Origin: Bolinopsis microptera
Taxonomy: Eukaryota > Ctenophora > Tentaculata > Lobata > Bolinopsidae
DNA: 64,000 nt
Reading direction: 5' to 3'
Assembly: GCF_026151205.1 (NCBI RefSeq)
Contig: NC_087079.1
Location: forward strand, 16,067,445-16,131,444
Below are positions 6,392-63,200 of this stretch, piece by piece (within the stretch, counting starts at the first letter, position 1; every line of letters starts with the position of its first letter). Under the pieces are notes generated by a model. The model saw only the letters and a list, made by a program, of their open reading frames with translations. It was not told the origin of the DNA and did no database searches. The position numbers were made by a program, and so were the translations under genes.

Positions 6392-6395
6392 GGGC

Positions 6396-6504: not shown

Positions 6505-6512
6505 GTGAGTAC

Positions 6513-9500
6513 AACTGTACTGTAGGTACTGTAGGTACTGTAGGTACTGTAGGTACTGAAGGTTCTGTAGGTACTGTAGGTACTGTAGGTACTGTAGGTA
6601 TTGTAGGTACTGTAGGTACTGTAGGTACTGTAGGTTCTGTAGGTACTGTAGGTACTGTAGGTTCTGTAGGTACTGTAGGTTCTGTAGGTACTGTAGGTTC
6701 TGTAGGTACTGTAGGTACTGTAGGTACTGTAGGTACTGAAGGTACTGTAGGTACTGTAGGTTCTGTAGGTACTGTAGGTTCTGTAGGTACTGTAGGTACT
6801 GTAGGTACTGTAGGTACTGTAGGTAATGTAGGTACTGTAGGTTCTGTAGGTACTGTACTACTGTAGGTACTGTAGGTACTGTAGGTACTGTAGGTACTGT
6901 AGGTTCTGTAGGTACTGTAGGTTCTGTAGGTTCTGTAGGTACTGTAGGTACTGTAGGTTCTGTAGGTACTGTAGGTACTGTAGGTTCTGTAGGTACTGTA
7001 GGTTCTGTAGGTACTGTAGGTACTGTAGGTTCTGTAGGTACTGTAGGTTCTGTAGGTACTGTAGGTTCTGTAGGTACTGTAGGTTCTGTAGGTTCTGTAG
7101 GTACTGTAGGTACTGTAGGGACTGTAGGTACTGTAGGAACTGTAGGTACTGTGGGTACTGTGGGTACTGTGGGTACTGTAGGTTCTGTAGGTACTGTAGG
7201 TACTGTAGGTTCTGTAGGTTCTGTAGGTACTGTAGGTTCTGTAGGTACTGTAGGTTCTGTAGGTACTGTAGGTTCTGTAGGTACTGTAGGTTCTGTAGGT
7301 TCTGTAGGTACTGTAGGGACTGTAGGTACTGTAGGGACTGTAGGTACTGTAGGTACTGTAGGTACTGTGGGTACTGTGGGTACTGTGGGTACTGTGGTTA
7401 CTGTAGGTTCTGTAGGTACTGTAGGTTCTGTAGGTACTGTAGGTACTGTAGATACTGTAGGTACTGTAGGTTCTGTAGGTTCTGTAGGTTCTGTAGGTAC
7501 TGTAGGTTCTGTAGGTTCTGTAGGTACTGTAGGTAATGTAGGTACTGTAGGTTCTGTAGGTTCTGTAGGTACTGTAGGTACTGTAGGTACTGTAGGTACT
7601 GTAGGTACTGTAGGTTCTGTAGGTTCTGTAGGTACTGTAGGTTATGTAGGTACTGTAGGTACTGTAGGTACTGTAGATTCTGTAGGTACTGTAGGTACTA
7701 TAGGTACTGTAGGTACTGTAGGTTCTGTAGGTACTGTAGGTACTGTAGGTACTGTAGGTACTGTAGGTAACTCGGTGCTGTAGGTACTGTAGGTACTGTA
7801 GATACTGTAGGTACTGTAGGTTCTGTAGGTACTGTATGTACTGTAGGTACTGTATGTACTGTAGGTACTGTAGGTACTGTAGGTACTGTAGGTACTGTAG
7901 GTACTGTAGGTACTGTAGGTTCTGTAGGTACTGTAGGTTCTGTAGGTACTGTAGGTTCTGTACTACTGTAGGTACTGTAGGTACTGTAGGTACTGTAGGG
8001 ACTGTAGGTACTGTAGGTACTGTAGGTACTGTGGGTACTGTGGGTACTGTGGGTACTGTAGGTTCTGTAGGTACTGTAGGTACTGTAGGTTCTGTAGGTT
8101 CTGTAGGTACTGTAGGTTCTGTAGGTACTGTAGGTTCTGTAGGTACTGTAGGTTCTGTAGGTTCTGTAGGGACTGTAGGTACTGTAGGGACTGTAGGTAC
8201 TGTAGGGACTGTAGGTACTGTAGGTACTGTGGGTACTGTGGGTACTGTGGGTACTGTGGTTACTGTAGGTTCTGTAGGTACTGTAGGTTCTGTAGGTACT
8301 GTAGGTACTGTAGGTACTGTAGATACTGTAGGTACTGTAGGTTCTGTAGGTTCTGTAGGTACTGTAGGTACTGTAGGTTCTGTAGGTTCTGTAGGTACTG
8401 TAGGTAATGTAGGTACTGTAGGTACTGTAGGTTCTGTAGGTTCTGTAGGTTCTGTAGGTACTGTAGGTACTGTAGGTACTGTAGGTTCTGTAGGTTCTGT
8501 AGGTTCTGTAGGTACTGTAGGTTATGTAGGTACTGTAGGTACTGTAGGTACTGTAGATTCTGTAGGTACTGTAGGTACTGTAGGTACTGTAGGTACTGTA
8601 GGTACTGTAGGTACTGTAGGTACTGTAGGTTCTGTAGGTACTGTAGGTACTGTAGGTACTGTAGGTACTGTAGGTAACTCGGTGCTGTAGGTACTGTAGG
8701 TACTGTAGATACTGTAGGTACTGTAGGTTCTGTAGGTACTGTATGTACTGTAGGTACTGTATGTACTGTAGGTACTGTAGGTACTGTAGGTACTGTAGGT
8801 ACTGTAGGTACTGTAGGTACTGTAGGTACTGTAGGTACTGTAGGTACTGTAGGTACTGTAGGTACTGTAGGTACTGTAGGTTCTGTAGGTAACTCGGTAC
8901 TGTAGGTACTGTAGGTACTGTAGGTTCTGTAGGTACTGTAGGTACTGTAGGTACTGTAGGTACTGTAGGTTCTGTAGGTAACTCGGTACTGTAGGTTCTG
9001 TAGGTACTGTAGATACTGTAGGTACTGTAGGTACTGTAGGTTCTGTAGGTACTGTAGGTACTGTAGGTTCTGTAGGTACTGTAGGTACTGTAGGTACTGT
9101 AGGTTCTGTAGGTACTGTTGGTTCTGTAGGTACTGTTGGTACTGTAGGTTCTGTAGGTACTGTAGGTACTGTAGGTACTGTAGGTAACTTGGTACTGTAG
9201 GTACTGTTGGTACTGTAGGTTCTATAGGTACTGTAGGTTCTGTAGGTACTGTAGGTACTGTAGGTACTGTAGGTACTGTAGGTACTGTAGGTTCTGTAGG
9301 TACTGTAGGTACTGTAGGTACTGTAGGTACTGTAGGTTCTGTAGGTACTGTAGGTACTGTAGGTACTGTAGGTACTGTAGGTACTGTTGGTACTGTAGGT
9401 TCTGTAGGTTCTGTAGGTACTGTAGGTACTGTAGGTACTGTAGGTACTGTAGGTACTGTAGGTACTGTAGGTACTGTAGGTACTGTAGGTACTGCATGTA

Positions 9501-11140
9501 CTGCAGGTTCTGTAGGTTCTGTAGGTTCTGTAGGTACTGTAGGTACTGTAGGTTATGTAGGTACTGTAGGTACTGTAGGTACTGTAGGTACTGTAGGTAC
9601 TGTAGGCACTGTAGGTTCTGTAGGTACTGTAGGTACTGTAGGTACTGTAGGTACTGTAGGCACTGTAAGTTCTGTAGGTTCTGTAGGTAATGTAGGTACT
9701 GTAGGTACTGCATGTACTGTAGGTTCTGTAGGTACTGTAGGTTCTGTAGGTACTGTAGGTTTTGTAGGTACTGTAGGTACTGTAGGTACTGTAGGTACTG
9801 TAGGTACTGTAGGTACTGTAGGTACTGTAGGTTCTGTAGGTACTGTAGGTACTGTAGGTACTGTAGGTACTGTAGGTACTGTAGGTACTGTAGGTACTGT
9901 AGGTACTGTAGGTTCTGTAGGTAACTCGGTACTGTAGGTTCTGTAGGTACTGTAGGTTCTGTAGGTACTGTAGGTACTGTAGGTTCTGTAGGTACTGTAG
10001 GTTCTGTAGGTACTGTAGGTACTGTAGGTACTAGGTACTGTAGATACTGTAGGTACTGTAGGTACTGTAGGTACTGTATGTACTGTAGGTACTGTATGTA
10101 CTGTAGGTACTGTAGGTACTGTAGGTACTGTAGGTACTGTAGGTACTGTAGGTTCTGTAGGTACTGTAGGTACTGTAGGTACTGTAGGTTCTGTAGGTAC
10201 TGTAGGTACTGTAGGTACTGTAGGTACTGTAGGTACTGTAGGTACTGTAGGTACTGTAGGTACTGTAGGTTCTGTAGGTAACTCGGTACTGTAGGTTCTG
10301 TAGGTACTGTAGGTTCTGTAGGTACTGTAGGTACTGTAGGTTCTGTAGGTTCTGTAGGTACTGTAGGTACTGTAGGTACTGTAGGTACTGTAGGTACTGT
10401 AGGTACTGTAGGTACTGTTGGTACTGTAGGTACTGTAGGTACTGTAGGTACTGTTGGTACTGTAGGTTCTGTAGGTACTGTAGGTACTGTAGGTACTGTA
10501 GGTACTGTAGGTTCTGTAGGTAACTCGGTACTGTAGGTTCTGTAGGTACTGTAGGTTCTGTAGGTACTGTAGGTACTGTAGGTTCTGTAGGTACTGTAGG
10601 TTCTGTAGGTACTGTAGGTACTGTAGGTACTAGGTACTGTAGATACTGTAGGTACTGTAGGTACTGTAGGTACTGTAGGTACTGTAGGTACTGTAGGTAC
10701 TGTAGGCACTGTAGGTTCTGTAGGTTCTGTAGGTACTGTAGGTTCTGTAGGTACTGTAGGTACATTGTAGGTTCTGTAGGTACTGTAGGTACTGTAGGTA
10801 CTGCATGTACTGTAGGTTCTGTAGGTACTGTAGGTACTGCATGTACTGTAGGTTCTGTAGGTACTGTAGGTACTGTAGGTACTGTAGGTACTGTAGGTTC
10901 TGTAGGTACTGTAGGTACTGTAGGTACTGTAGGTACTGTAGGTACTGTAGGTACTGTAGGTACTGTTGGTACTGTAGGTACTGTAGGTACTGTTGGTACT
11001 GTAGGTTCTGTAGGTACTGTAGGTACTGTAGGTACTGTAGGTACTGTAGGTACTGTAGGGTACTGTAGGTACTGTAGGTACTGTAGGTTCTGTAGGTACT
11101 GTATGTACTGTAGTGACTGTATGTAATGTAGGTACTGTGA
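6513..11140. repeat. 4.6-kb nonamer array, unit GTACTGTAG
   Basis: About 500 copies of a 9-bp unit alternate between GTACTGTAG and GTTCTGTAG, with sparse variants (GTGGGTACT, GTAACTCGG). Blocks are themselves duplicated: the junction GGTAACTCGGTGCTG recurs at 7766 and 8673, and a longer block at about 9920-10045 recurs at about 10510-10640. Because 9 is a multiple of 3 and the unit lacks stops in several frames, long open frames (Val-Gly-Thr, Tyr-Cys-Arg, Leu-Gln-Tyr repeats) arise on both strands; they are not genes. Confidence 0.97.
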
Positions 11141-11149
11141 TCAAGGGAA

Positions 11150-11676
11150 CACGTTTATTAGCCAGCCAGTTATTTACTCGAATATAGAATCTTACATTTA
11201 TTATATTAATTAATTTTATTATTATAATTATAAAACACAAATCAACCATAACATAAAACATAAATTAATCAAATCTTGATATGAATGAAATGTTCTGACA
11301 TCTGCACGCAATTGAAACATGGTTCATTCAAACAAAAATAACATATTGTAGTACTTACAATTTTTAGACTCACGCTAAGATTGCTTGGGACATTTTGACT
11401 TATTGGATTTTGTTGAATACACTGTAGTCATTGCATGCACTGTATGCACTGTATAATGTAGGCACTGTAGAATATAGGTACTGTAGGTACTGTAGTTACT
11501 ATAGGATGTACCTTTCGTAACTACAGTTGGTACTCCAAGGTACTGAGATGAAAGTACTGTACTATGTACTGTCGAGTACCAGGTTCATACTCTAGAAACC
11601 GATTGTGTAACTTAACTTATACCGTTATTAAACTATTAATATCCCTATTATAACTTTATAATCGGTGAACTGAAGA
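11150..11676. other. Non-coding; decayed edge of the nonamer array
   Basis: AT-rich sequence with scattered remnants of the ACTGTAGGT unit at about 11420-11590. No coding frame seen. Confidence 0.5.
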
Positions 11677-11684
11677 ACACCTGG

Positions 11685-12784: not shown

Positions 12785-12792
12785 ACACCTGG

Positions 12793-14583: not shown

Positions 14584-14893
14584 CTCGTTCGTTCGTTCGT
14601 TCGTTCGTTCGTTCGTTCGTTCGTTCGTTCGTTCGTTCGTTCGTTCGTTCGTTCGTTCGTTCGTTCGTTCGTTCGTTCGTTCGTTCGTTCGTTCGTTCGT
14701 TCGTTCGTTCGTTCGTTCGTTCGTTCGTTCGTTCGTTCGTTCGTTCGTTCGTTCGTTCGTTCGTTCGTTCGTTCGTTCGTTCGTTCGTTCGTTCGTTCGT
14801 TCGTTCGTTCGTTCGTTCGTTCGTTCGTTCGTTCGTTCGTTCGTTCGTTCGTTCGTTCGTTCGTTCGTTCGTTCGTTCGTTCGTTCGTTCGTT
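14584..14893. repeat. Uninterrupted CGTT tetranucleotide microsatellite, about 77 copies
   Basis: About 309 bp of perfect (CGTT)n with no interruption. It is open in frames of both strands (Phe-Val-Arg-Ser and Asn-Glu-Arg-Thr periods), which explains the overlapping open frames on both strands; these are not genes. The purity suggests recent expansion. Confidence 0.98.
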
Positions 14894-21200: not shown

Positions 21201-24200
21201 GTATCTGATCCCGCAAGTGCAATATTTTGATCGAAAACACAATAAAACGTAGCCTTGGCTTTTATTCTCATGTCTACTTTTTCTCACTTCCGAAGTTATT
21301 TACAAAAAATCGAAGGCTTGAATTAAAATTCTAAAATGGTTACCTTAGCTGCATAGTGCATATACTTTTTCTACAACCTTGATAAACAAAATGTTGTTGC
21401 CAATTTTCCGTGTTTTAAGCCATTGTATATATTGTATGATTAAATGAGAGTCTCGATAAGTCAGAGGTTGCAATGTTTCCTTATATAGCAAGTAGTACAA
21501 GTCTTTGTCTAGGTACGTTTTACGTCTAGGAGCTCCACGAACCTTTAATTAACCCGAAAGCCTGGAAAGTGGTAACCTTTAATTAACAGAAACTCATTAA
21601 TCAATTTATCAACCATCAAATCAGATAACTGCTACCAAGACAACCAATCAAGTCTGGTCACCGTGCCAACCATCAAACCATTTCCTCGACTGAATATTAA
21701 AGTCTCAAATTCATACGACCGTGGACGATCTGTCAATTTAGATCTCGTAAACTTGCATCAGTTTCTAAACTGTAACTAAACGTATGCAGTCTGCGACGAC
21801 AGGAGCTATATAATATGCTTCAGTGAGACATTATAAGAATCTGGCCCAGACATGCAACACTATTTACACTGAAGTATGAACCCGTAAACTCCTGTCCTGC
21901 AAGCGAGAGTGATTACTTTGGCTGCAGTTTTACTGATTTGCTTTGTTGCGCAATGCTCGGTAACGTTTCCCCAAGAATACCTCCCAGATTTTCCCCACGT
22001 TCGCCAAGGTCGCAGCATCTTCTTCAACTAGGGGGGGAACTTCTTCAACTAGGGAGGGAACAAAAGTCAGTTTCCCTCCCAAAAAGTTAGCCGCCTCCGC
22101 GTATTCTGTCGACTTTCCCTTTAAAATATTCGCTTTTTTTGTAGATTCACGTCTGCTCTGTTATTTGATAATCACTGCTGTTCAAGTTTCGTTGGATCTA
22201 TTATTTCGCTCGCCCACAAATTATCACGAGGATTGGGTTTTGAATTCAAACAAAACAGTTTTACCGTAACCCTGCACAATCGAATTTGCGTTTTACTAGC
22301 CTGTACAGTTCCTAGAGGAAGCATTTTTACGTTATGTCATGGGGTGATTCGTAATCAGCGTCCAAAAGTACATCGTTTAAAGTCCCTTTCACACCCTCGT
22401 CCCTCAGTGCCTTTTCACAAGATTTTTTTGAAATTTGGACGAGCGATATAATCGGGAACTAGTTTCGTAAGATCATAAAATTACATACAGACGATTTACA
22501 ATTTAATCCTTGTGTTTGACCTCCCATATTCCAGGTCCGTGGAGTCAGAACAGATGGAGGCCGCCAGCGTGGGAGTCTTCTGAAAGAAGAACATTAGCAG
22601 AGGTCCTCACGCAGGTATGCTAAACCACATACCCCCCATTTTTTCAGAGGGCTTCGAATTTCTTTCATGGCCAAAATCGTTTAAAATTGATTTTCGAGAA
22701 TTATACTTATAATACCTATACTAGAGTTAAATTAAATTTTTCAAAACGACCATTAACGTCCACGTGCCCCACATTTGTCGTTGCCCAGGTAGAACCATTA
22801 CAGGATTATCACTTCTTACCCGGCTTACAATTCATTCAGGTGCCAAATTACATCATAGACAAGGGAGATGACGGGTGCAGGGAGGTAGTGTCATACGTGG
22901 ACGGAGTGGTCATGTTCACTGACCTGTCCGGGTTTACAGCTCTCTGTGAGAAATATGCAGAGTCTGACGAGAAACCACACACTAACGGGGAGAAGATCCC
23001 GTCCAGAGGGGTGGACGCTCTCACTGCCTCGCTCAACGATTATCTGGGCAGAATAGTTCAAGGTAGGTTCTCATGTTAATTTCTGCTTCGCTCAACGACT
23101 ATCTGGGCAGAATAGTTCAAGGTAGGTTCTCATGTTGATTTCTGCTTCGCTCAACGAATCTCTGGGAAGAATAGTTGTTGGGAAGGTTCTCATAGCACTC
23201 ACTGCCTCACTGAAGGATTATCTAGTAGAAATAGTCTATGGTAATTGGTAGGTCCTTAAAGCCTTTCAACGACCACCTTCCATTTTACAGATCTAATGTG
23301 CGCTAACGGGGATATTCTGAAGTTCGCGGGGGACGCTATCCTTACTCTGTGGCAGTGTGAAGAATCAGAGTTCCCGGCTACTATAGACAGAGTAGTTACT
23401 GCTGCTATCAACATTCAGTGCAAAATGGACAATTACATGACCGGTAATACTTCAACTTTCAGTTCAAAACAAATAACGGTTTTTACTAGTTAGATAACAA
23501 TAGGTAGATAAGATAACAATTGAGTTGTGATGGAATAGTGAATTTTTCAGCTCAATAGACTCACTTAATTAATTAAAGTATGGTAATCAGAAATAGTAAC
23601 TACTTTGGATTTGTGTAAAGTTTGATAATAATCAGAAATATTTGTATTTTATTTTTGATTTGGCTGAAAATGATGCCAATTTTGCCCATTAATTCCTCAT
23701 ACGCATTAATTACTCAACGCATTTTTTGTCAAATGATAACTTTAAAAGCTGTAATATTAGTGGTTGTACTATCATAGTTAGTAACAGTAGCATGACGTGT
23801 GGTAGTACTCACTATCATTCCCCGTCACACAACACCGATCCTTTGCAGAAGTGGGAGTGAACCTGCGAGTAAAGATAGGAATTGCAGTGGGATGTGTTAT
23901 CTTCTACCACATAGCTAACGATAACGAGCGGCACTTTGGCGAGGCTGGTCAGACGATTGAGGAGGTCAATATAGCTCAGAGTAGTGCGAGTAGTGGAACT
24001 GTCGTGGTTAGTACTTTAGTTAGTACTTAGTACTTAAGTTAGTACTTAGTACGTTAGTTAGTACTTAGTACTTTAGTTAGTACTTAGTACTTTAGTTAGT
24101 ACTTAGTACTTTAGTTAGTACTTAGTACTTTAGTTAGTACTTAGTACTTTAGTTAGTACTTAGTACTTTAGTTAGTACTTAGTACTTTAGTTAATACTTC

Positions 24201-45200: not shown

Positions 45201-48200
45201 TTGCCTCTGTTCAGCAATGTTTTGATATAAAACTGATGGAAACAATGGTATTGCAATATAAGTTGCATACTTTTTAGCCGGTTGATAACTAAGAAAAATA
45301 AACTTAATTATACAATAATTAATTCGGCTGAACGCAACACATAGCAGGAGCCACATTAACCCATTAGGGACGATAGGGTCGTTTACGACCCACCTTTTCT
45401 AGAGGCTATAGAGGACAAACCATAATACTAAACGCAACGAATCTTTCGCACATATGCTCAAAATTTATTGGGCTACATTATTGACTTTCCAGTCGAGACC
45501 CAATTAATTACTAACAACTAAATAATTAGGCTAATTAGTCGTCATAATTGGAAAATATTTCACTTTACTTCTTGCCTTGATTGGGACATTACAACTTTAT
45601 GTAGGCTTATTTTGTTGAGGACAAAATAGTTGCGGGCAACGATTTCCTTGAGACATATGAAAAGCCCGTGATAATCAGATGTTCACAAACAGAGCTAGAC
45701 GCTGTTTACTAACTGCGGTCGCATACGACCCACTCGTCCGGGTCGCAAACGACCCATCACGGTTTTTCGGCTTTAACTTCTGAAACAAAGACGTTAGGAT
45801 AAAATAAAATAAAAAGCATAAGTTAAAAACATATGGTCAATACTGTGTAACTCTAACCTTTTAAAAATAAAGAATTTGGGTCATTAACGACCCACTCGGC
45901 TCACTTGCTTATTACTACATATGTCCATGTAACTTCTTGAATTCAGCCTAAAGCATGACATCATAAGTTCAAAATCGCCTCTCAGCAAGTGATAATCATC
46001 ATAAACTGCGAAAAATCGGTTAAATGGGTCATTAGCGACCCACTAGGACCACAAAATTGATTAATTAAATATAATGTTGTCAAACTTTTACAAATATTAG
46101 TATAAAAACATGTTATATCTTGGTCATTACTCCTGTACGTTGATTTAACTTTTAAAATCGATCAACTGGGTCAATAACGACCCACTCGGAAGTTGAACCA
46201 CCTCATCAATTATTATCAGTATCATGCTGTTCCACCATCAAGAAAGACACTCGTAGGTCTTAATTCCACGCAAACCACGGGTGGCTGACTACTAGCCCTT
46301 CTGAGATCCAGGGCCAACTGAAGGGCCGTCATCACTCATCAAAGAGCTGCGAGAATAACACTACTGCATATGCCTGGAGTTGCGTCCTGACTATAATACT
46401 ATGGTGCGTGGAAATCTGTACCGAAAGGACCGTGGCCGTGCCGCAAAAGAAAAGGAATCGGCCCTCGTTCCTAACTTGCTAGGTAATAGCCATGCTGTTG
46501 TTGTTGCTTATTAGATTCTGTTACCTTTTTCGTCAATTTCGAATCTTGGTAAACGACCTGCTACAACCCACCGCTTGAGACCCAGGGTCCCACGGTGATC
46601 AGATCATGTCACTCAAGAAAAATCCCCTGAACGAAGTATACGAGATATCATGTAACCTTGGGTAAATACTGAAAGACGAGTGGTCAAATTGCATATTCTA
46701 ATCCAACATGCCAAGATGTTTTTTTCATTCCTAGAAAGTACGAGAATAACTAAACAACTGCTGCATTCAGATGGCTACATCTACAGCTCTGTGAAGGAGG
46801 ACAAGGAAAAAGCCCCCCCCCCCCCCCCATTTGGCTGGCGGTGCTGCAACCTGCAATCTCTCAGACAACTACCTCGTTTTGGGTAACAAACCCCGCAACA
46901 ACGAGGCAGCTTTCAAAACGAAAACAAGTATTACGTAATCGGCCGAGAGGGAGGGGAGTTTCCAAATGATTAAGCTTGTGTAATTTTGACATAATAGCTA
47001 TGTGGTGGGGGGGGGGGGGTGGCGTAAAAATTGTCCAATAAGTGATTACGTAATATATGAACGGCCCCTAAGAAGTAAAGAAAGGGAGCTGCGAAGAGAG
47101 TAGATGCAGCCATCTGAAATCTGAATCCAGCAGTTGTATAGGTAGTTCTTTTTGGACGTTCTAGGAATCGGGAAAAGATAGGCATGTTGTTTGCTGTCTC
47201 ACGACATTACGGTCGTGTACTAACAGCTGATAAACTCACCTACCTATCAATCCAACCCATTATTCGTCAGTCATTGGGTGACGTGATCTGCAGATTACCG
47301 TGAGACTCCAGATCTCAGAAGGGCTAGTAGTCAGCCACCCGTGGTTTGCGTGGAATTAAGACCTACGAGTGTCTTTCTTGATGGTAGAACAACATGATAC
47401 TGATAATTAATGTCGTGGTTCAACTTCCGAGTGGGTCGTTATTGACCCAGTTGATCGATTTTAAAATTTAAATCAACGTACAGGAGTAATGACCAAGATA
47501 TAACATGTTTTTATACTAATATTTGTAAAAGTTTGACAACATTATATTTAATTAATCAATTTTGTGGTCTTAGTGGGTCGCTAATGACCCATTTAACCGA
47601 TTTTTCGCAGTTTATGATGATTATCACTTGCTGAGAGGCGATTTTGAACTTATGATGTCATGCTTTAGGCTGAATTCAAGAAGTTACATGGACATATGTA
47701 GTAATAAGCAAGTGAGCCGAGTGGGTCGTTAATGACCCAAATTCTTTATTTTTAAAAAGTTAGAGTCACACAGTATTGACCATATGTTTTTAACTTATGC
47801 TTTTTATTTTATTTTATCCTAACGTCTTTGTTTCAGAAGTTAAAGCCGAAAAACCGTGATGGGTCGTTTGCGACCCGGACGAGTGGGTCGTATGCGACCA
47901 TAGCTGTATCTTTTAAAGTAAACGAGATACAGATTAGCTTTTTTGGATATCTCATTTTTGCTGTAAAGTGACCTAGTGTGTTAAACGGCATCAAAATCGG
48001 CAAACTTTAAAACTCGTCGTCCCTAATGGGTTAACGTTTGGCCGTAATGTACAAGATAAGTCTACCCTAATGTCTTCAGGATTAGTCTACCCTAATGTCT
48101 ACGCTTAGTCTTAGTGGCCAGGCTTCTTGGATACTACCCATCATTATACTCTTCTGTCTGCAGTTTAATTTCACAGTATTTCATGTATTGGTGACGGACT

Positions 48201-51200
48201 GTAAATCTTTAAATAGCGGATTTAAATTTCAGCACCGCTGATAATATACTTTACAATCCAGATCTATTTGAGTAAAACTTGTAGTGTACATGATTAGTAA
48301 CGTGAGATTAATCCCGGTCATGTCCTCATCTAAACAAAATGTTTAGTTCTTTTTGTTGTTTAATGAACCTCTCACCACCTGCTCTCTCACCAGCTTGCAC
48401 CAGGCTCTGTTAGTAGTGCTCAGTTATATTAGTGCTCGGTTAGTGCTATTTTAGTAAGGTCTGGTTGAGAGGTAACCAGGTAACCAGGTAACCAGGTAAC
48501 CAGGTAACCAGGTAACCAGGTAACCAGGTAACTCTCACCAGCTTGCACCAGGCTCTGTTAGTAGTGCTCAGTTAGTGCTATTTTAGTAAGGTGTGGTGTG
48601 CTAGGTGTGATGCACTGCGGTTATTTCAATCCTCACACCTTATCAGTTATCTCTCTTGTTATTTTCTCTAGTTCTTTTGATTTCTACATCTTGTGTTATT
48701 TTATCTTGTTCTTATAATTTCTACACCTTGTTATCACACCTACGTTAGTTCTTGTGAACTATTTCTTTTACGACTTCTCTTACACATACTTTTTTTTGTA
48801 ACATAATTTTTTGTGTCCGTTTAATTTGTAACTCTTATTTGTTAGATAAATGCCTGCTTTTAGTATCTCTGGTTAGGTTTCTCAACTATTTGTTACAATG
48901 ATAACGATCTGATTTATTCATTCTCAGTATTGTAATAAAGGGCAGCCGTCACTCACCAAACCATGGTGTAAATGGTAGTGGCTTTCATTAGAGCTGCGAA
49001 AATAACACGAGTGTATATGCCTGGGGTTGCGTCCCGACTAAACTGCAGGGAAATCTGTACCGAACGGACCGTGGCCGAAATGCAATTAGACAGGGAAATC
49101 GGCTCCCGACTGCGGTCGACCAAATTATTATTATTATTATTTTAATATGTTATCTGACTGCTCCTCTATTATAACAGTAGCTGACAATGATAGACAGAGC
49201 AGAGGAGCCGGTGTGGTTAGTGCTAGCAGGAGTAAACGTGGTGGTAGGAGTAGTAACAATCCTCTTCAACCTCCTCGTCCTACAATACTACAAACCACGT
49301 ACCAAACAACCCACTACCCACTTCCTCTTCTTCCTCCTCGCTCTGAGTGACGTCATGTCGGGGGTCTCAGCTCTGCTGCACTGTGGAGTTCTTATCATCT
49401 ACTATCAGGACTCCAGTACGGATCAGCACCCCACTGATTCCCCTCTCACATCCACTCCTCCCACCACTACTGGGAGCAGCACTGAGACCAGGGAGACTGT
49501 GCTGGGTTGGAGGGCAGTGTTTTGTCTGGTCACCTACTTCGTAACTCAGTTCAGTAAACATCTCTCAGTGTTTATGAACCTGATACTCTCCTTCATCAGG
49601 ACATACCTCGTCATCTCCCCCTCCCACTCTGTAAAGAGACTGGTGGTGACGCTTACTGTGGGGGTTTTCTCTCTTCTCACTGCTCTATTCCTCTGTGTTG
49701 TGCTGGCTTACTTCGTGCAGATTCTCCTCCAGGATCCTGGCGAAAGTATTTATCTTATCTTCTCCATGTGTTTTAACAAGATATTTGAAGCGTACGTAGC
49801 TGTGTTGGAGCACCTTCACACCAGAGTTGATGACAAAGTGATAAACACCATCCTGATAATAGTCCCTTACGTGCTCCCCTCAGCTCTGTGCCTGCTCTGC
49901 TGTTGTGTGTTCGTTTGGAGTCTGTACACTAAACCAGCTCTGTCATGCAGAGTGGAGAAACGAAACAGGCACATTCTGGGCACAGTCCTCATCCTCACCG
50001 TCCTGTTCATAGTGTCCTGCTCGGCTCTGATAGTAGTGTGGGTATATTACGACCTGTACCCGGGGGGTCCTAGTACCCTGAGAACTGCAGCGTATGTTCA
50101 GTACACCTTCTACAACCTCCTCCCCATCCTCAACAGTGCGCTTAACCCTATGGTGCTCATTCTGAGAGGCAAGACTCTCCGTAACTATGTGACGAGTGTC
50201 TGGACGAGGTCTCACTCTGGTCACAGTCACAGTACTAGGACAAAGGGTCCTGACAATTTGCAGGCCAGTTAGTAGAAGTTAGAAGACAAACTACCCACCT
50301 GTCTGGACCACTACCAGTACCCACAGCTGCCTTACTTTTCTCAACAGCAGCGCAACTGATCGTGTTAAATTAACTCTCAATGTCTGGAAAACTGGTTACC
50401 CTGGTTACTGTATTTAACAGACTGGGTTACCTAAGTTACTGTAGGGCCCTTCCGACAGGTGTAAATTAATTCCTTCTAAGTGTATTTCTCAGCTGTAGTG
50501 TTGCACTCCTAATTACTTAAGCTTATTTTGTTATTCATCTTCTTTAAATGAAACGTTAACAATTAATGTCAAGCGATACTCAAAGTTTCAATAAGTAATA
50601 AATAATCATGCTCTCAAAAACGCTTTAGCGTACCTGTGATTTGTTGTAATATTTTGTAATTTTGTAAAGTTTCATTTCCAATATAAAATCCTGTCTTGAA
50701 TTTACTTTACACTCGGTACTGAAACCAATGACGGCATTGGTCATCTATCAAAAATATAAATTGCTATGGATCATTTAGGCGGACTTCACTCTTTACCCTT
50801 CAAGTTCAACAACTCTAAACCAATGAGAGGGAATAGTTGTCTACAAATATGACAGAGGATACCGCAGATAGCTGCAAATATGACAGGTAGACAGTTGCTA
50901 TCTTCAACCTTGACTCTGACCCAATATAACCTCAGGTACACACAGAGAAGCAGCGTCACGACATGAACAGGACCGGACCACTGGTGACAGGACCTCTTGT
51001 CACCGACACTATTCAAGAGGTTTGCGGCCTTATACACTTTTTCTGTGAATCGACAAGAATTGCGGTCTTATTTCTAGAGTCTTCTCTCTTTGGTCGACTT
51101 TTAGGCCAAACAATCGGCGATAATGTAAGAAAAAAAAGAGGCGATATTTAGCATACCCTTTCACGCCGCACTGCATCATTTCTAGTTTAAATAGAAACGA

Positions 51201-54200
51201 AGTATAACCAATAAACCTGGGGCAAAATGACATTTATTTGAAATTTAATTGAAAATATGACACTCAAATATGACATTTCAAAGATGACATTTCAAAAACG
51301 ACATTTTATCAAAAGAATTAAATAAAAAGAATTTGCCATATTTTGAACTACAGCCATTATACATTATATGTATCTATTTGAAAATATGACATTTAAGAAT
51401 GAATTTTAAGAATGAAATTCAAAGATGACATGTAGAAATGGTATTTAAAAATGACATTTAATTGAAAATAAAAGAAATGAATAAAAATATTTTCCAAATT
51501 TTTAACTACAGCTATTATATTTGTCCCGATGAATTTTCTAGTGTGTTTTTATACAGAATGCAGACTGTAAAAAACTTGCTCGTGGTAAGCACTTCCCCGA
51601 TCCCCTAAAAACAACCGAGTATGATACCTTATATTTACTATATTATTGCTAGCTATCTGCTATATTATAGCTATCTGCTATATTATCATAATAGGCTATC
51701 CAACATAGGCATGTAGCCGTGTAATTGTCTGTCCTATAAGTACCCTCTCAATGTTTGTGAGTCCTCTTCAATAATCAGAAATGTGTAAATAGTTTAACCA
51801 ACGACATGTTGTCCAGTAAAGCCCAAATCCTCCGCATAACATCCACCCACTTACTTTAACAGCCTTGTTTAATAATCTAGTATACCAGGTAAATTATATA
51901 ACGATACAATAACAAACTCACAGGAATTAACAAAACCCAGTGTAGTAAGTGTACCAACACTTACAGGATAGATTTTCAGATTCCCGCCGACTCGTCTCAG
52001 ACGGGCTCAGTTACTAGACAGCGTTACTTTTCCCTGGCCACTCCTCGGCCCCGACCGCATCACAAAATAAGCGTGGGCAGTGTCAAGAGGATGTCCCTGA
52101 TGGTCAGTAGGGTTGGTGTGTACCTTGGTTAAATTGCCGAAGGGTCTTGCTCTGGGTGACAGGGACAAAAGGAAATCGCGGCATGAACGGAATCGCGATT
52201 TTTCCCATTATTTGCGACAAATTTTATGTATAGTTTAATGTATAGTCTGTTAAAAATCGCGGTATCGTGATTTTTGGCCAAAATAATCGCGAAATCCTTT
52301 TGTCCCTGCTGGGTGATAACACTATAAACTATCATGTGTTGCTCTTTAGGGGATTAGCGCTCTCTCTCTCTATATCGCTCTGATATTATTCTCTGGGTGC
52401 TGCGCGCACTTTTCAGTTTAAACAGTGCTGCTCTCACTATGTACAATTGTCCGTGATGTTAGAGTGAATAATTTATGTTTATATGCACGTGCATAATTTG
52501 AGTAGTTTATCACCAAACAATGGTATTGTTTTACTGCACGTGCAAATATACTGATTTATTGCACGAGCAAATAAAATTGATTTATTGCACGTGCAATAAA
52601 TGACTGTTTGATAGTTTTTGGCATGAAGGCTGTTTTGAGATGAAAGTGTCAGCTTCTTAATATCAGGGATCCTTATCGTGGAAAACGATCGTTTAAATTA
52701 GTGAAAATTTACAAAAGGGGTTATTTGTTCTAGATCCGGTGTTCCCATGTGTTTTGCTGGTTGGGCGTGTTGCCATGGTAACTTGTATTCACTCTGCTGA
52801 AAATCTTTCTTATTAAGATGTCTTTCCGAATTGCTCTCAATATAAATATAACTATGGGTCGCACATAACGACAACCATGACTTACACAGATGGGCTAAAA
52901 GTACTCCACTGATTAGGCATTATATATGAGGAATCATTGTACCCGGGACTGTGCCTATTCGAAAGCAGTTCTGACGAGTCAATGGAGGGATTTACAGGTT
53001 CCTACGTGGAAAACTTCAGTGTTGTGTACAAATGAAAGATTCCCTGAGTGAAATTTTCATTCAACGAGATGCGGGCCATTTTCGTCAAAGCTTCTATAAT
53101 ATTTTGCTATTGAGTAATAGCTATTATCTGACTGATAACTCGTTATCTGATATTGATGATATGTAAAATATTACTCAAAACTCAAGTGTAAACAAAAATC
53201 ACCGCAATTCGTACGCTTTATATTCTTCGCTCTGGCACGTGCACAAATCAATTTTTGTTGACTCGCCCACGTGCAGAAGGAAGTTAAAGTATGCACGTGG
53301 TGCGCGGAACTAACTTGCACGTGGTGCGCGGAGCTAACTTGCACGTGTTGCAGGAAAGTTTGCAAGACCCACTGGCCGGGAACGACCACCACATGGTGAT
53401 GAGACTATGTAAAACACCCAGCTTTAAAAGGAAAGTTATCAAACAGCACTCCCGGCAGTCCACTTGTCCTCCTGTGGTAGTCAGGTTGGATTCTAGTCCA
53501 AATAAGTGCTCCCCCGGCGCTGGCAGCACCCTTCTGGTGAGCCTCTGCAGTTTCAGCATCTACTTCAGCACTTTGTCGGGAGTTTTATAAGTGTTACCAT
53601 GGCAACGTCTAGTGCACCCGCCTGGGTTACTTAGATTAAGATATTACACTCAGTTTTACTATGAGAAACATCCAGCTAGTTTCTAAACCATTTTCTTGAT
53701 TTTGATCTACGTATCAAGACAATATTTTTATAGCTGGAAGATAGGTGCTGATTGGTATTGTTGAAAGAAAACGGAATCATATTGGGGACTGGGAATAGTC
53801 CATTTCAACTGCAAGGTTTCTTCATTTCTACTAAGTTAAGGCTAGGTTTCTGAAATTTGTATAAACTCCAAGCACCGTTTTCTAACCTGCATAAAATGTA
53901 GACTTAGTTTCTTTGAGCGAGTTCCATATAAAAACTGAGTGTACTCTATAAGTACTCTATTGTGCATGTCAATTAGCAATTTCAAACTGCATGAGTTTCG
54001 CACATATAAAAATGTTAAACGCCTAAAGACTCAATTAATAATAACCGAAATTGAATGCTGATCGAGCTCAACAGAAGCAAAATGAGCTCAGTAAACGATA
54101 ACCAGGCACAAACCGAGTGTAAGACCATGGTTATTTCCGACTAAGACCCCGCTGTGTCTGTCACCACTCTCACCAGACTTAATCGACTAACGAGTCTCCC

Positions 54201-57200
54201 TTATACTGAGCGGAAAACGGTGCGCTGATTATTGTTAGCCTATTACTCGGCTGACAAACTTTTAAGGGTTAATCATCACAGTGATTCTCAAGAATAAGAA
54301 ATGATTGGGGAGCCCGGGAGCTCGCTGGCCTGAAGTTTTAAGAAAAGTCTGATTAGGTTGACTCGACACTGTCAAGCTAAGGCCGCTGTGATCTGCGTTA
54401 CCATGGTTACTGAATGCTGTTATACCCTGGGTCTCTACTATACTATAGTGCACTTCAGCTAAACAGACAACTGCAAGCTTGATCTTCCACTGTGTTACTG
54501 ATTATTGCGTTATCATGGCAACCTATTGCTGCGTTACCTTGGTAGCTGACTGCTGCCTTACCATGGTAACTGATTGCTGCGTTACCATGGTAACTGATTG
54601 CTGCCTTGTAAGCACTGAATTCTACCCTGGTGTGGTCCGCATGATCTCTGTTACCATGGTTATTGACTTGTGAAGCACATTAGTAAATAGTTAATTTGAT
54701 AATTAGCCAGTTAAGCAGTCAGATAGTTTTATTGCCCGATGATTTTGATTATCAAGGTTACTTATAGTGGTTATCTCTCAGACAGGCTCCTCAAACGAAC
54801 TGATGAACAGGTCACATCCCAAGTGCGCTAAAGACAGTGCTGATGCTAAAACAGAGACCATCAAATACTACCACAGCATTCCTGAAATTCAGGTTATTTA
54901 AATTCTTGAACATTTCATTAAATTTTAATTAAACTGACTGGTTTGTTAGCCATGTCATATTTGATAGTGTGTAACATATTGTGTAACATATTGTGTAACA
55001 TATTGTGTAACATATTGTGTAACATATTGTGTAACATATTGTGTAACATATTGTGTAACATATTGTGTAACATATTGTGTAACATATTGTGTAACATATT
55101 GTGTAACATATTGTGTAACATATTGTGTAACATATTGTGTAACATATTGTGTAACATATTGTGTAACATATTGTGTAACATATTGTGTAGCATATCGTGT
55201 AACATATTGTGTAACATGTGTAACATTAAGGCCAGTACGGAGAAGTTGTCGTGTTCCCTGCACGCGGGGGCAGATCTGAGCACAGTTCCTATAAAAGACA
55301 GTGTCACTGGAGTCATCCTCACTCGTATAGACCAGCTCTCCCCAATCAACCAGATGGTACTGAAGTCAGCTAGTGTGCTAGGGCGGAAGTTCCACTACGA
55401 AACTTTACAGGTTATTTTATAACACTTCACTAGCCTCGTGATTATGCTTTACATGATTATAGGCTACGAATGTTTATGAATCATAGTGTTTAAGTTTTAC
55501 TGTGCACAATTTCCATTAGGCTATTCTCTCGATCGTATACATATTTGATAAACATGCTGTCTAAGCTCTGTCGTTTGTAAGCAGCTGATCGGCTTCTTTA
55601 TGTTCGAATTCAGAATTGCTTTACCCACTGCAGGCGATAACCCCCAACATTCGAGAAGCTTCACTTGAGAAAGCTCTGACGGAGTTGTTAGCAGCTAAGA
55701 TAATAGAGCGGTGCCAGGAGGACCGGCTGAGTGTGGCCTTCTTCAGGAACAGGAGACAAGACAGTCTCCCCCAACTTAGGGGCCAGAAGATGTCATACAC
55801 GTGAGTAGTAATTGCTAAATGTAGTCATAACTTTAGTCATAGATTTTATTTACATACCACGTGCATACTTTTGACGAAACTACAAATCACGTGCACAATT
55901 GCACATTGTAGTCAGTGGTCGAAGAAAATTCTTAATAACGTGTTTCAAAAAAATGTGTTAATCTGATGATGTTGTTTCAGGTTTACACACTCAATCCTAC
56001 AAGAGACTACCTACGGTATATTGTGTGCAGACCAGAGACGAGTCCTGCACGAGGGAGCCGCAGAACACCTTCAACTCAGGTTACCTAGCAACCCACCATT
56101 ACCTTTATTCTTATCTTATTAATGTTACCTAGCAACCCGCTCTTATCTTCATTCTTATCTTATTAATGTTACCTAGCGACCCGCTCTTATCTTCATTCTT
56201 ATCTTATTAATTTTACTTAGCAACCCACCATTACCTTTATTCTTATCTTATTTATGTTACCTAGCAACCCGCTCTTATATTCATTCTTATCTTATTAATG
56301 TTACTTAGCAACCCACCATTACCTTTATTCTTATCTTATTAATGTTACCTAGCAACCCGCTCTTATCTTCATTCTTATCTTATTAATGTTACTTAGCAAC
56401 CCACCATTACCTTTATTCTTATCTTATTAATGTTACCTAGCAACCCGCTCTTATCTTCATTCTTATCTTAATAATGTTACCTAACAAACCGCCATTATCT
56501 ACATTAAATGTTACTTAGCAACCCGCCAGTATCTTCATTCTTATCTTATTAATGTTATCTAGCAACCCACCATTACCCTGGTTACCTATCAATGCACATC
56601 AAAACACAAATGGTTGATAAAAATATAGCAACAATTGAGAGTAAAATAGTTCGTATCACAAATCCAAAATAATTTATTTGTCAGAAAGACCTGTATGTGT
56701 TAAATATAGTAATGTAAGTTTAGTCTAGCTTCACACAGTAGTGCACTTGATCAGAGAGTCGGGGCCGACAGCTGATGAGAGGGGGTCCTCTGTTGGAGCA
56801 CGTGCAGGTAGCCTGGGAGGAGTCCGTGACAATCCGGGAAGAATGGAAGGAGGGTCCAGCAGAGGGGAAGTAGGGTCAGGCTGAGGAGAAGTAGGGTTGG
56901 AAAGAACGGACTTAGGACCACCGAACAGAGTGGAAACAAGGTCGCCCACAGTTGAAGTAGGAGCACTTGGAGGAGCACTTAGAGCAGGGGTGGTTATGGC
57001 CTCGGATCCACTATGGGAATCACCCGGTCTGGGTGAGGGGAGTATGAACTCTCCAGCGTGAGCTTCAGAGTAGACTATTGGGGGGAATGGAAGTCCGGAG
57101 CTGCCTTCTATTTTAAACTTAACAGCACTGAGCAACTTGTTACCGTAAGTGCAGCACGAGAACAGTAGGGTAATGCCCAGAAACATCACTATCATTGGTG

Positions 57201-60200
57201 TCCAGTCAATTGCTGGACCTCCAGCACCTGAATCCTTATCTGTACTGTTACTTCTGAAATAAAGAGGTATAACGAGGTGTGAGGTAAAATGATGGGTATC
57301 TAAAGTTTATACAGAGGTAGAGCTGGATGCGAGCAAGAATGAGGGGTAAGAATAAAGTTTAATAATGAGGGGTACGAATAAAGGGTAATAATGAGGGGTA
57401 AGAATAAAGTTTAATAATGAGGGGTTTCTAACTTTTCTATAAAAGTAAAGCTGGACATCTCCTTCCTTGATGCTTCGGCTGGAACAGTTAACAAAACCAC
57501 CGCCAAACACAATATCATTTTTAACTGCATCCTGAAAATACAGCTGTTAACTGTCGTGCAAAGTGTTTGACTAAGAGTTAGTTAATGTTACTAAAGAGTT
57601 AGTAGATAAACTGAACTGAAGTCCACATCTCAACCTTATCAAGTGTTCGATTCAGTGGTCGACCGGGGCCCCCAAAATCACAACCCCCGGCCCTTCCCGG
57701 GCCCGGCCAAAATTTGGCAAATCGCCGGGAGTAAACCCCTGCCAATAAATTTAACCCCGGCCCCGGCCAAAAACCATGCATTTGCCGGGGGCACAGCCGG
57801 GGATTTCATGAACGATTTTGGCACATTTTTGAAAGAAATCAAACACAATTTAATGGTAATTATGAGATTTCAAAGTTGAAAAATATATTGTCTACGTTGA
57901 GTACGTTTAAATATAGAAAATACAACATACGGCTTAAATAAGACTACGGCTAGTAACATAAAAACCTTGGTTCTTCCTCAGTATGATCAGACTTTTCAAT
58001 TAATCGTCTCCGGGAAATTTGCGATAAAACATACGTAGAAACTAGAAATTAAAAATACTGCACTGCAGCTAAAACTACGGCTCAACGTAAACTACAGAGC
58101 CTAACATTTATGGTAAATTTTTATGAACCGAGCCATATTTGGATGTGGGGTTACTTTTAAATCCCGAGGTCCAGATAAAGTAGCAGCTTGAGGATTAGAA
58201 ATTAAGTATGGATCTCAGGATAATGAGGATTATCCTGAGTTGGTTCACAGCACGAAGTTGCGGTTTAATCCTCAAGTCGGTGAGGATAAGCCGACCTTGA
58301 GTTTATCCTTCCCGATTGCATCACACCAGCCTGAATTATTATCAAATTCATGTTTCAATTTCTGACTTCAGTTTGGTAAACTACCCCCTGCCCTGGCAAA
58401 ATGGAAGATTTCCCGGCCCCGGCCCCGGCCAATTCTCAGTGGTCAGCCCCGGCACCGGCCCCGGCTATATTGGGGCTCCCCGGCCCCGGTCAGAATCCTG
58501 CCCCCGGTCGACCACTGGTTCAATTAAACTTCAGTATTTACACAATATTTCACAGTTGGAGTAAATGTTGATTAAGTATAAATACAGCTTAAGATAATGC
58601 ACTAGCGCACTACAAAACAACATCTATGAGCGGCTATTTAACTTAACTGCTTATTGTAATGAGTGTGTGCCATTATGCCAGTTGCAAATGCGGGGAAGTT
58701 TTGAAATATTTATAACGGGTATAATATGTCCAGCATTTGTTCAGCAATACTTCTCAGTCTTTTCTGCCGTATAAATATACATTTTTATTTGGCTAATTAC
58801 TTTAGGATATACATTTTACATTACGGTAGACATATGATATTTCCTCTCACTCACACTGGTTTCTACAGAATCTACAAATGTGGGGATAGTGGTTACCATG
58901 GCAACGATGAGTTGGTTGCTATGACAACACCGAGATTGTTGCCACGGTAACGTAGTGTTTTTACCGTGACAACATGGTGTTTTTACCACGGTAACAGTGT
59001 TTTTATCACGGTAAAACAGTGTTTATTACCATGGCAATAGTGTGCTAGTTACCACGGAAACACAGTGTCAGTTACCACGGAAACACAGTGTCAGTTACCA
59101 CGGTAACACGATGTTTCTTAGGTTTCACAAGTGCGGAGAGTGCGGATGCGGAAAGTTCCTCCAGAACCCACTCGGACCTCGAAACCCCTCCTCGGGAGTT
59201 GCCTTTATTGGAGCCTCTCACGGCCTCAGTCTCCTGGGTCGCTCTCAGTTGGAAACTTTTGAAAGTAAGATAACACTTTACTGTACCACAATTATTTATT
59301 ATAACCACCATTGTACCGTATTCTGTGTAAAATTATCTTTATCCCGGTTACTGCGACAAGTAAAAATGCTCTTATTAGGGAAAGGAGTTTACTCGACGTT
59401 TCAATGTAACTACATCGTATTCATGATCTAAAAACAAGTGTTAAAAATTAAAAACGTAAAAAACATATATCTGAGGCAAAATTGTACCAACTAACCAACT
59501 AACCGTATTTCCACCGACCAAGTTAAAACGGTGTAATTAGAGCCAATTAATGCCGCCTATACCGATATCAATCTTTAACCATGTCTACACCAATTTCCAA
59601 TTCCATTCGCCCGAGAAATTTTCACTATTCTCGCCATCCGAAAACGCAAATATTTCTCGCTTTTGACATCATCATGAGTCATGACCAATTTCTCCGAGGA
59701 GCCTCAAAAATGGCGTTTATTTCCAAAGAATAATCCCTCAGGCGGAGGAGACAACTCAGAGCCAGCTGTATCGGAGGACGAGGACGAGATGATATGTGAT
59801 ATGACTCACAGTAACTCCGACAGAACAAGTATTATTATTAGTTAATTGATTGTTAATATCTTGTAACCACCAAGACCCAAGACAGATCTTGTCGCTTATT
59901 CAAAATAATTGGTGAGAGTGTTCGGTACCATAGTAACCCAGGTTTAATTGCAGGTGCAGGTAACAGTAACAATAAAAGAGTTACGATCGGTAAAACCACT
60001 GAGATGGAGTTCCCGTTTAATGGTCGTCGGACCACGTTGCTTGGGAAACCAAACTTTGCGGAGCTAGTCCCTCCACATAGAGCATGTCGACCTTCACTAG
60101 CTAGTGTTAAACTAGAAGCAAAGTTCCAGGTATTTTACCCTTGCTTGTTAGTGTTAAATTAGGAGCAAAGTTTCAGGTATTTTACCCCTACTTGTTACCT

Positions 60201-63200
60201 TCACTATCTAGTCAGCTAGTAACTTCAATTATGCCATATTATTTTACATTTATATATAATTGTTATACTATATCATATTTACATAATCCTTACAGAATCA
60301 TCACACTGCGCATCTATCATTCTATCGGTTAAAACACAATGTCACAACTTCTTTCAGAGCACCAAATGTGAAGACAACTTTAAGACACTGATAAACTACA
60401 AGAAGAACTTGGAAACATCAGATACAACAGGAAACAAGTATTCAGAAACAGATACCAGACAACCAGACGATTACAACTCGGATCAAGACAGGTAACTCAT
60501 CTCCCTCCCTCCTTCTCTCCTTCTCTCCTCGGCAAAACTTTCTCCTTTTCCACTCTGCTATTTCTCCTTCTGTACTGTTATTTTCTCCTCATCTCTTCCC
60601 ATGCTCTGTCAAACTAAAACTATCTTCTTATCTTCTCGTCTCCCCTTCCTCCCCCTCCTCTCTTCCACTCTGTAAAGGTCTTCTCCTCCCCCTCCTCTCC
60701 CCTTCCTCCCCCTCCTCTCTTCCTCTCTGTAAAGGTCTTCTCCTCCCCCTCGTCTCCCCTTCCTCCCCCTCCTCTCTTCCTCTCTGTAAAGGTCTTCTCC
60801 TCCCCCTCGTCTCCCCTTCCTCCCCCTCCTCTCTTCCTCTCTGTAAAGGTCTTCTCCTCCCCCTCGTCTCCCCTTCCTCCCTCTCCTCTCTTCCTCTCTG
60901 TAAAGGTCTTCTCCTCCCCCTCGTCTCCCCTTCCTCCCTCTCCTCTCTTCCTCTCTGTAAAGGTCTTCTCCTCCCCCTCGTCTCCCCTTCCTCCCCCTCC
61001 TCTCTTCCTCTCTGTAAAGGTCTTCTCCTCCCCCTCGTCTCCCCTTCCTCCCCCTCCTCTCTTCCTCTCTTCCTCTCTGTAAAGGTCTTCTCCTCCCCCT
61101 CCTCTCCTTTCCTCCCCATCCTCTTCTCCTTTCCTCCCCATCCTCTCTTCTGTGCTCTGATAATAAATATTTCAGCGGTACAGGTTCTGGTATGTGTAGT
61201 GACGATGAGGCTGACAGGGCTGATAAACTTAACACTCGCAGGTCCACTTCTGAGAGCAATGTCTTCAGGTAGGTCGCTTTACCGATACATACCATGGTTA
61301 ATCGTATAATGAATTACTTTTTTATGCTTATTATTTTCTTATTTGCACTGACAATCTGACATTTGACTTGTATTAAATTTGTGATTTGACACGAGTCTAC
61401 ATGATGAACATTACAGACCGTTACCGAGAATTGCAGTTAATGGGCTGTAAGTAAAGAGATCGCATCTGATTACACACTAAATTACACACTAAATTAATAC
61501 TATGTATTCAGATGATTAGATTATAACCACGTGACTCAAACTAATTAAAGATGAGCAACTGATTAAAATTTGTAGCAAAAAGTAAAAAAACGATTATATG
61601 TACAGCGTACACTTATCGTCTAGCTATCATGGTTACTAGAAGGCCGATTGCCCTGGTTACCAGTTATTCTGGTTACCTGTTACCCTGGTTACCTGTTACC
61701 CAGGTTATCAGTTACCAGTTACCCTGGTTACCTGTTATCCTGGTTACCAGTTACACTGGTTACATGTTACACTGGTTCCCGTTACCCTGGTTTTCAGTTA
61801 CCCTGGTTACATGTTACCCTGGTTCCCGTTACCCTGGTTTCCTGTTACCCTGGTTACATGTTACCCTGGTTACCAGTTACCCTGGTTCCTGTTACCCTGG
61901 TTACCAGTTACCATGGCTACATGTTACCCTGGTTACCTGTTATCCTGGTTACCTGTTACCCTGGTTATCAGTTACCAGTTACCCTGGTTACCTGTTATCC
62001 TGGTTACCAGTTACCCTGGTTACCAGTTACCATGGCTACCTGTTACTCTGGTTACCTGTTATCCTGGTTACCAGTTACCCTGGTTCCAGTTATCATAGTT
62101 ACCTGTTACCCTGGTTACCAGTTACCCTGGTTACATGTTACCCTGGTTACCAGATACTAAGTTACACTGGTTACTTGGTCTCAATTAACATTTTATACGA
62201 GTTTTTTTCCCTACTCTTGCCGAAGGCAAAAAGATCGTAGGGAATAAGTAATCGGGTTTGGATAATATGAGGTGGCCCGACAGTCCTACGGTGTCGACAA
62301 AAGTCTGCTCCTTCGCAATATATACCACTCCCCTATAATAATTAGGTGTATAAAAAGAGTATATTTTGCGCGCGCGACGCTAGTTATGTGTTAATTAATT
62401 ACAGGCATAACAACCAGTTTTTGGTGCTTGACGACTGTTACACAGGTTTCCATCGGGTTACAATTTACTCTAATTCGTTAATATAGCATATTAGTCATCT
62501 GAGCGGATCAATCATCAATAATATAAGTGTTATTTTGGTGAGACAAGCTTAATAAATTACTATACCGAGGGATAAAATTCAGCAAGTCAAAACAAATAAA
62601 ATTATGATATCAGCTGATAAACTCGTGGCTGATTATTAAACAGTTGATCGACACTGAATAGTAAAAAGCGAATACATAGTTGAGAACAAATGATTAGATT
62701 ATAACCACGTGACTCAAACTAATTAAAGATGAGCAACTGATTAAAATTTGTAGCAAAAAGTAAAAACACGATTATATGTACAGCGTACACTTATCGTCTA
62801 GCTATCATGGTTACTAGAAAGCCGGTTGCCCTGGTTACCTGTTACCAGTTACCCTGGTTACCTGTTATCCTGGTTACCAGTTACACTGGTTACCTGTTAC
62901 CCTGGTTACCAGTTACCTGTTACCCTGGTTCCCGTTACCTGTTACCCTGGTTACCAGTTACCCTGGTTACATGTTACACTGGTTCAATCATCAATATAAG
63001 TGTTATTTTGGTGAGACAAGCTTAATAATTTACTATACCGAGGGATAAAAAGCAAGTCAAAACAAATAAAATTATGATATCAGCTGATAAACTCGTGGCT
63101 GATTATTTAACAGTTGATCGACACTGAATAGTAAAAAGCGAATACATAGTTGAGAACAGATTTTACTTTACATTTACATCCAAGAAGCAACTAAGATCAA

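Follow-up and report, generated by a model that had tools for sequence, protein, structure and literature searches.

The stretch of DNA analyzed here, referred to as the window, comprises 64,000 nucleotides from the ctenophore Bolinopsis microptera (C8:16067445-16131444 of a 264.65-Mb assembly in 232 contigs). A ctenophore origin agrees with a glutamate receptor encoded by a long open frame (L002): among proteins of solved structure its best relative is ML032222a, a chain of 256 residues, which ranks above full-length receptors of vertebrates, and a second ORF (L004) gives the same picture. Names in ML denote Mnemiopsis genes. The window contains a gene for an ADCY10-like soluble adenylyl cyclase, for which we modelled 24 exons. 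The subject of this work is the tandem arrays that touch or cross the exon-intron junctions of this gene and of other genes in the same genome.

The cyclase gene was located with tblastn, using as a query an approximate human protein sequence. Eleven matches (E from 4e-10 to 0.22) are colinear from 22837 to 56074; the remaining matches (E of 2.3 or higher) were taken as chance. A tblastn match is overlapped by 11 of the 24 exons, another 10 are supported by coding score and splice sites, and three are tentative. All splice sites, both in the window and in the genome sample described below, were predicted from sequence.

Tandem Repeats Finder (TRF) returned 113 rows for the window, and rows with a score of at least 50 were treated as arrays in the analysis of junction contacts. 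A junction was regarded as contacted if an array edge lay from -70 to +20 bp of it. The limit in the genome sample was slightly different (-60 to +20 bp). No array of the window begins before -39, so the window counts are the same under either limit.

Tandem arrays at the cyclase junctions

Arrays are in contact with 9 of the 24 modelled donors and with 2 of the 24 acceptors. Random placement of the 36 arrays of 23 introns inside their own introns gives an expectation of 2.6 contacts for donors (P = 5e-5) and the same 2.6 for acceptors (P = 0.83). Three of the arrays (23024-23176, 28990-29642 and 60102-60197) cross the junction, i.e., their tandem unit spans the exon end and the intron start. 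A decoy, which is a further copy of the exon end with its donor, is found downstream of the exon ends 23062 (one decoy), 24006 (two), 29016 (12) and 60129 (one). The clearest decoy case among the window donors is the array with the 38-bp unit. In the array behind 24006, the exon end is repeated twice more within the 147-bp higher-order unit (24084-24443), once as SSASSGTVV and once as SSASSGTVM, and GTTAGTAC follows each of them. The other five arrays merely abut their donors. Units of abutting arrays, for example those starting at 34439, 35859, 39459 and 40168, contain no exon-intron junction, and such arrays are thus not mirages, as junction-duplicating minisatellites of amphioxus are called.

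The original prediction had assigned arrays to at least eleven cyclase donors; its exon numbers were matched to our coordinates by inference. Nine of these contacts stand, and two cases are weaker. The exon end near 28617 is uncertain, its candidate donors scoring only 1.1-2.6, and the array at 60635 turned out not to be flush with a donor. An array close to an acceptor had been proposed for a single intron, but two window acceptors, 39657 and 55231, have an array within 20 bp. The same layout had also been claimed for an orphan exon upstream of the gene. An array does follow its good donor (6505, score 5.9), whereas the best acceptor in 6380-6420 is weak (2.1 at 6414). If the putative exon near 6396-6504 is real, it has a large array on each side. 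The features are listed in Table 1.

Table 1. Gene, exon and array features of the window
Position	Strand	Feature	Source
22840..60491	+	ADCY10-like soluble adenylyl cyclase gene	24 modelled exons
59742, 59954, 60358	+	Tentative cyclase exons	
23062, 24006, 29016, 34436, 35854, 39441, 40154, 56079, 60129	+	Exon ends of cyclase donors with an array	
23024..23176	+	59-bp unit x2.6, crosses donor 23063; one decoy about one unit downstream	TRF
24008..24443	+	19-bp units within a 147-bp higher-order unit; 1 bp past donor 24007	TRF
28626..28716	+	10-bp unit x9; flush only with poor-scoring donor 28618 or 28622, uncertain	TRF
28990..29642	+	38-bp unit x17, crosses donor 29017; 12 decoys with at most 2 mismatches in 14 bases	
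34439..34681	+	11-bp unit x22, 2 bp past donor 34437	TRF
35859..39142	+	44-bp unit x73 (3.3 kb), 4 bp past donor 35855	TRF
39459..39649	+	20-bp unit x9, fills the intron: 17 bp past donor 39442, 7 bp before acceptor 39657	
40168..40263	+	11-bp unit x9, 13 bp past donor 40155	TRF
54964..55217	+	12-bp unit x21, acceptor-side; ends 13 bp before acceptor 55231	TRF
56080..56610	+	44/88-bp units, start exactly at donor 56080	TRF
60102..60197	+	47-bp unit x2, crosses donor 60130; one decoy donor	TRF
60635..61147	+	57-bp array, not flush: 143 bp past donor 60492	TRF
3693-6392		60/74-bp-unit array upstream of the putative orphan exon	TRF
6517..11138	+	9-bp unit GTACTGTAG x515 (4.6 kb), 12 bp past donor-like site 6505	TRF

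The cyclase introns have other contents as well. According to the gene model, the 14.6-kb intron 40155-54781 encloses a long open reading frame on the same strand (49181-50269) for a seven-transmembrane receptor (Pfam 7TM_GPCR_Srw, E = 9e-6, 49190-50269). A very homogeneous mid-intron array with 61 copies of a 31-bp unit (99% matches by TRF) occupies 40585-42481. The intron past 24006 includes two long overlapping open frames (25303-27650; 539 and 256 aa from stop to stop). Their parts 25360-26919 and 26943-27650 gave no Pfam match at E of 0.01; perhaps they represent a transposon-derived gene.

Array edges at exon boundaries in a genome sample

The first genome sample was obtained by a Pfam search of the genome for myosin, kinesin, dynein AAA_6 and class III cyclase domains. 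It used 274 of the 295 matches, located in 129 stretches with 500-bp flanks. Exons were called by a small predictor trained on the sample stretches themselves, with a bonus inside Pfam matches. All 274 matches lie inside an in-frame predicted exon, which is expected because of this bonus. After removal of identical exons, 281 of 282 Pfam-supported exons were left. The second sample (SNF2 and ABC_membrane) used 61 of 76 matches and gave 62 exons in 30 stretches. The test on it was fixed before these stretches were obtained, but after the first-sample results. It includes only two donor and two acceptor cases and thus, taken alone, neither supports nor refutes any pattern. The pooled sample consists of 343 exons from six conserved gene families.

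The matches left out (10/109 for kinesin, 4/67 for dynein, 7/46 for cyclase, 5/40 for SNF2, 10/36 for ABC and 0/73 for myosin) were mostly whole-domain or long single-frame matches, or second copies. This exclusion was uneven: at least one left-out cyclase match (C10) belongs to neither category, and in other cases long-frame matches and second copies were kept, including the near-identical pairs L078/L080, L112/L115 and L113/L114. Because each stretch was cut at 450-500 bp from the Pfam matches, long arrays are clipped. Among the predicted donors (L005-L133), 27% have T at intron position +3 and are GTTAGT-like. T at this position is less frequent in the usual animal donor consensus.

Arrays with a score of at least 50 are in contact with approximately one in 14 sampled exon edges, namely with 27 of 343 donors and 23 of 343 acceptors. 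In the first sample alone the counts are 25/281 and 21/281 (Fisher P = 0.64). There, arrays with units of at least 8 bp contact 13 donors vs 14 acceptors at a score of at least 100 and 8 vs 12 at a score of at least 200; with a score of at least 30 and limits of -80 to +40 bp, 50 donors and 50 acceptors are contacted. The donor rate of the cyclase gene (9/24) exceeds that of the first sample (Fisher P = 4e-4), although this gene was singled out for the very feature.

We then compared the positions of array edges with expectations derived from array density at 60-400 bp. In the first 20 intron bp there are 13 edges at donors vs 4.4 expected (P = 6e-4) and 15 at acceptors vs 5.1 expected (P = 3e-4), in the pooled sample and at a score of at least 50. 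Within the last 60 exon bp, 14 donor-side edges were found vs 13.1 at the interior density. Array coverage was assessed in flanks of at least 400 bp. On the donor side it is 12.5-14.8% over the first 60 bp and 9.9-14.4% farther in (80-400 bp), i.e., at most slightly above the deep-intron level, and so there is no sign of strong donor recruitment. On the acceptor side it is 8.8-13.5% near the junction vs 14.7-17.9% deeper. Array edges accumulate at exons on both sides, but the arrays themselves are not clearly denser there. An excess confined to donors was rejected on the basis of the acceptor control of the sample, which gives the same edge excess. Plain exclusion, in which arrays simply avoid exons, was also rejected: it predicts a coverage ramp, but donor coverage in these flanks is near the deep level by 20-40 bp. 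Acceptor coverage by 20-40 bp is somewhat below the deep level, and with all flanks counted, including those of short introns, coverage increases with depth.

In the first 281 exons, 22 arrays share 8 bp or more with an exon; the donor is crossed by 12 of them and the acceptor by eight, and two are exon-internal. Two of the donor-crossing calls are doubtful (in L011 the Pfam match extends 23 bases beyond the donor; the array of L121 reaches no farther than 5 bases into the intron). When up to two mismatches are allowed, decoy sites are present in 16 of the 20 crossing arrays, 10 of 12 at donors (0, 1, 11, 7, 11, 14, 23, 1, 4, 14, 0 and 1 decoys) and six of eight at acceptors (1, 6, 4, 10, 2, 0, 0 and 22). 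In 11 of the 12 donor-crossing arrays, an in-frame stop occurs within 54 bases past the called donor, and the unit length is divisible by 3 in only 7 of all 20. These early stops and the freedom of unit length from the reading frame indicate that the repeat copies are not translated, which rules out translated protein repeats.

The units were compared through common 11-mers. Among 213 consensus units from the window and the first sample, 138 have no 11-mer in common with any other array on either strand. The largest cluster of related units unites eight arrays, and small clusters have common cores such as GTTACCATGGTAAC or TGACGTCA.

Near-identical loci were compared in nine cases, all within one assembly. 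In one acceptor-crossing array, the 64-bp unit is repeated at least 8.0 times in L078 and 2.1 times in L080. An intron array of L123 and L124, not flush with a junction, is absent from L134, which accounts for two of the nine cases. Differences within or next to arrays were also seen between L051 and L137 and between L053 and L138. The arrays differ little or not at all where L110/L136, L112/L115 and L113/L114 align; in the comparison of L111 and L135, the alignment does not extend to the arrays of L135. Near-identical gene duplicates occur on the same chromosomes, some of them inverted (L123/L124 vs L134, at approximately 5.07 and 4.98 Mb of C13; L110/L136; L078/L080). Such loci may be segmental duplicates or unmerged haplotypes.

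Probable origin and tolerance of the junction arrays

We consider it probable (roughly 0.7) that the crossing arrays are mirages, which result from local tandem duplication with subsequent expansion and are tolerated since the outermost copy of the splice site gives the normal exon. We infer that arrays merely abutting a junction are products of the same duplication process. According to this explanation, minisatellites would form when a segment spanning an exon-intron junction is locally duplicated in tandem, and would expand afterwards. The frequency of duplication near junctions would be roughly that in the rest of the intron, and duplicates inside the exon would be purged by selection on the coding exon. 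If a duplicate crosses a donor, the first donor should stay intact and all downstream copies should become intron; if it crosses an acceptor, the last acceptor should stay intact. If the spliceosome pairs splice sites across the exon (exon definition), it would be predicted to pick the exon-proximal copy, i.e., the first donor or the last acceptor. With this copy winning at both ends, crossing arrays would be near-neutral. The pile-up of edges in the first 20 bp could be a wall effect, in which arrays expand, or are cut back, as far as the exon edge and no further. Tolerance owing to the frame being kept by the most upstream donor was among the causes suggested in the original prediction, and it is the best fit to the data, including the early in-frame stops. 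Also borne out is its view of a recurrent process that acts on mostly local units.

Several points weigh against this explanation. The use of the outermost copy is a prediction from sequence. Duplication with a fixed boundary would give a coverage ramp and not an edge pile-up, and a wall effect requires outward growth or extra seeding. More generally, the pile-up requires outward growth up to the exon, trimming or extra seeding at junctions, any of which may be its cause. Acceptor-crossing starts in the last 60 exon bp of the pooled sample number 8 vs 15.2 at the interior rate. Finally, the donor lean seen in the cyclase gene and in the subset of short introns would not be predicted by simple tolerance. 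In the gene, contacted donors outnumber contacted acceptors (9 vs 2; Fisher P = 0.036, post hoc). In 126 complete introns of the sample with a median length of 196 bp, there are 10 donor and 5 acceptor contacts with 3.1 expected for each (P = 5.5e-4 and 0.19), and at a score of at least 100 there are 7 and 1 with 1.2 expected for each.

The donor lean is an argument for seeding specific to the 5' splice site, in which a process linked to transcription or splicing (R-loop, break repair or slippage at U1-bound sites) would start the arrays. Random placement in the window and the prevalence of donor-crossing over acceptor-crossing arrays (12 vs 8) favor it too. Seeding at the 5' splice site was also the view of the original prediction, but the sampled acceptors have a like edge excess, the overall numbers of contacted donors and acceptors are close, high-scoring arrays of the first sample are no more frequent at donors, and donor coverage is not clearly raised. 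We therefore regard donor-specific seeding as doubtful, even though the complete introns and the cyclase gene speak for it. The threefold edge excess at both ends would be explained if exon edges in general were prone to duplication, for example due to nucleosome borders or AG|GT microhomology. Nearly flat coverage, and the occurrence of array starts at the interior rate in the final 60 exon bp before donors, make seeding at both junctions unlikely, yet somewhat less so than seeding at donors. We would give a similarly small chance to the idea that the birth or growth of arrays is actively promoted at junctions, perhaps more at donors, by a process coupled to transcription or splicing. Introns would then lengthen stepwise by copying their own splice sites, and exon definition would choose the exon-proximal copy among up to two dozen near-identical decoys.

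Two further explanations have very little probability. The small clusters with common cores could reflect a repeat family, mobile or introner-like, that inserts at splice junctions. However, a single mobile family is rejected by the predominance of singleton units and the small size of the largest cluster, and crossing units by definition hold the own sequence of the local exon. It is just as improbable that the arrays are artefacts of assembly. Long arrays are difficult to assemble, and the differences in copy number concern near-identical loci that are possibly unmerged haplotypes, but the units are not all identical in 16 of the 20 crossing arrays (72-98% matches) and arrays are present again where two copies were assembled separately (L078/L080, L113/L114).

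Relation to known systems and significance

Mirages were described in amphioxus as tandem duplications of the exon-intron boundary in the genes of Adh3, troponin C, globins and PGBD5; they are reported at 5' and 3' boundaries, with length instability and apparently normal mRNAs (PMC3087553, PMC3902484). The arrays studied here are similar: they are minisatellites duplicating either junction, many units carry AG/GT sites, and unit lengths range from tens of bp to approximately 160 bp. The differences are that they belong to another phylum, that their rate was estimated from 343 exons, and that many of them are flush with the junction without crossing it and so are not strict mirages. The original prediction knew of no named mechanism that matches exactly. 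The structure, though not its cause, already had a name in amphioxus.

Internal tandem repeats at exon-intron boundaries are also reported for human segmental duplications (PMC2812944). Minisatellite expansion at the boundary and variation of copy number between paralogs are common to both systems. Approximately half of the human repeats fall within coding exons, and some of them give rise to new introns, whereas 20 of our 22 exon-overlapping arrays cross a junction. Intron gain via tandem duplication of AGGT proto-splice sites (Rogers 1989 and Zhuo et al. 2007, as cited in PMC3087553) likewise involves a tandem duplication that carries splice signals; in our case existing introns are lengthened and no new intron is shown.

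Introners, or introner-like elements, are recurrent repeats tied to introns, with one sequence family present at many introns. Most units studied here are unrelated between loci, 138 of 213 being singletons, unlike the units of introners.

Keyword searches of open-licence PMC papers, and term look-ups in three ctenophore genome papers (PMC10232365, PMC13231562 and PMC11797021), revealed no ctenophore report of tandem repeats at splice sites. The crossing arrays are a known kind of structure, mirages, in a new lineage; the estimate of their rate and the counts of decoys are the addition made here.

Several percent of the sampled exon edges are in or against arrays, which makes them a natural test of how splice sites are chosen. 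Such edges can have a long row of near-identical donors or acceptors, of which probably one yields the right protein. Growth and gain of introns by local duplication can be tested with the existing ctenophore RNA and Iso-Seq data.

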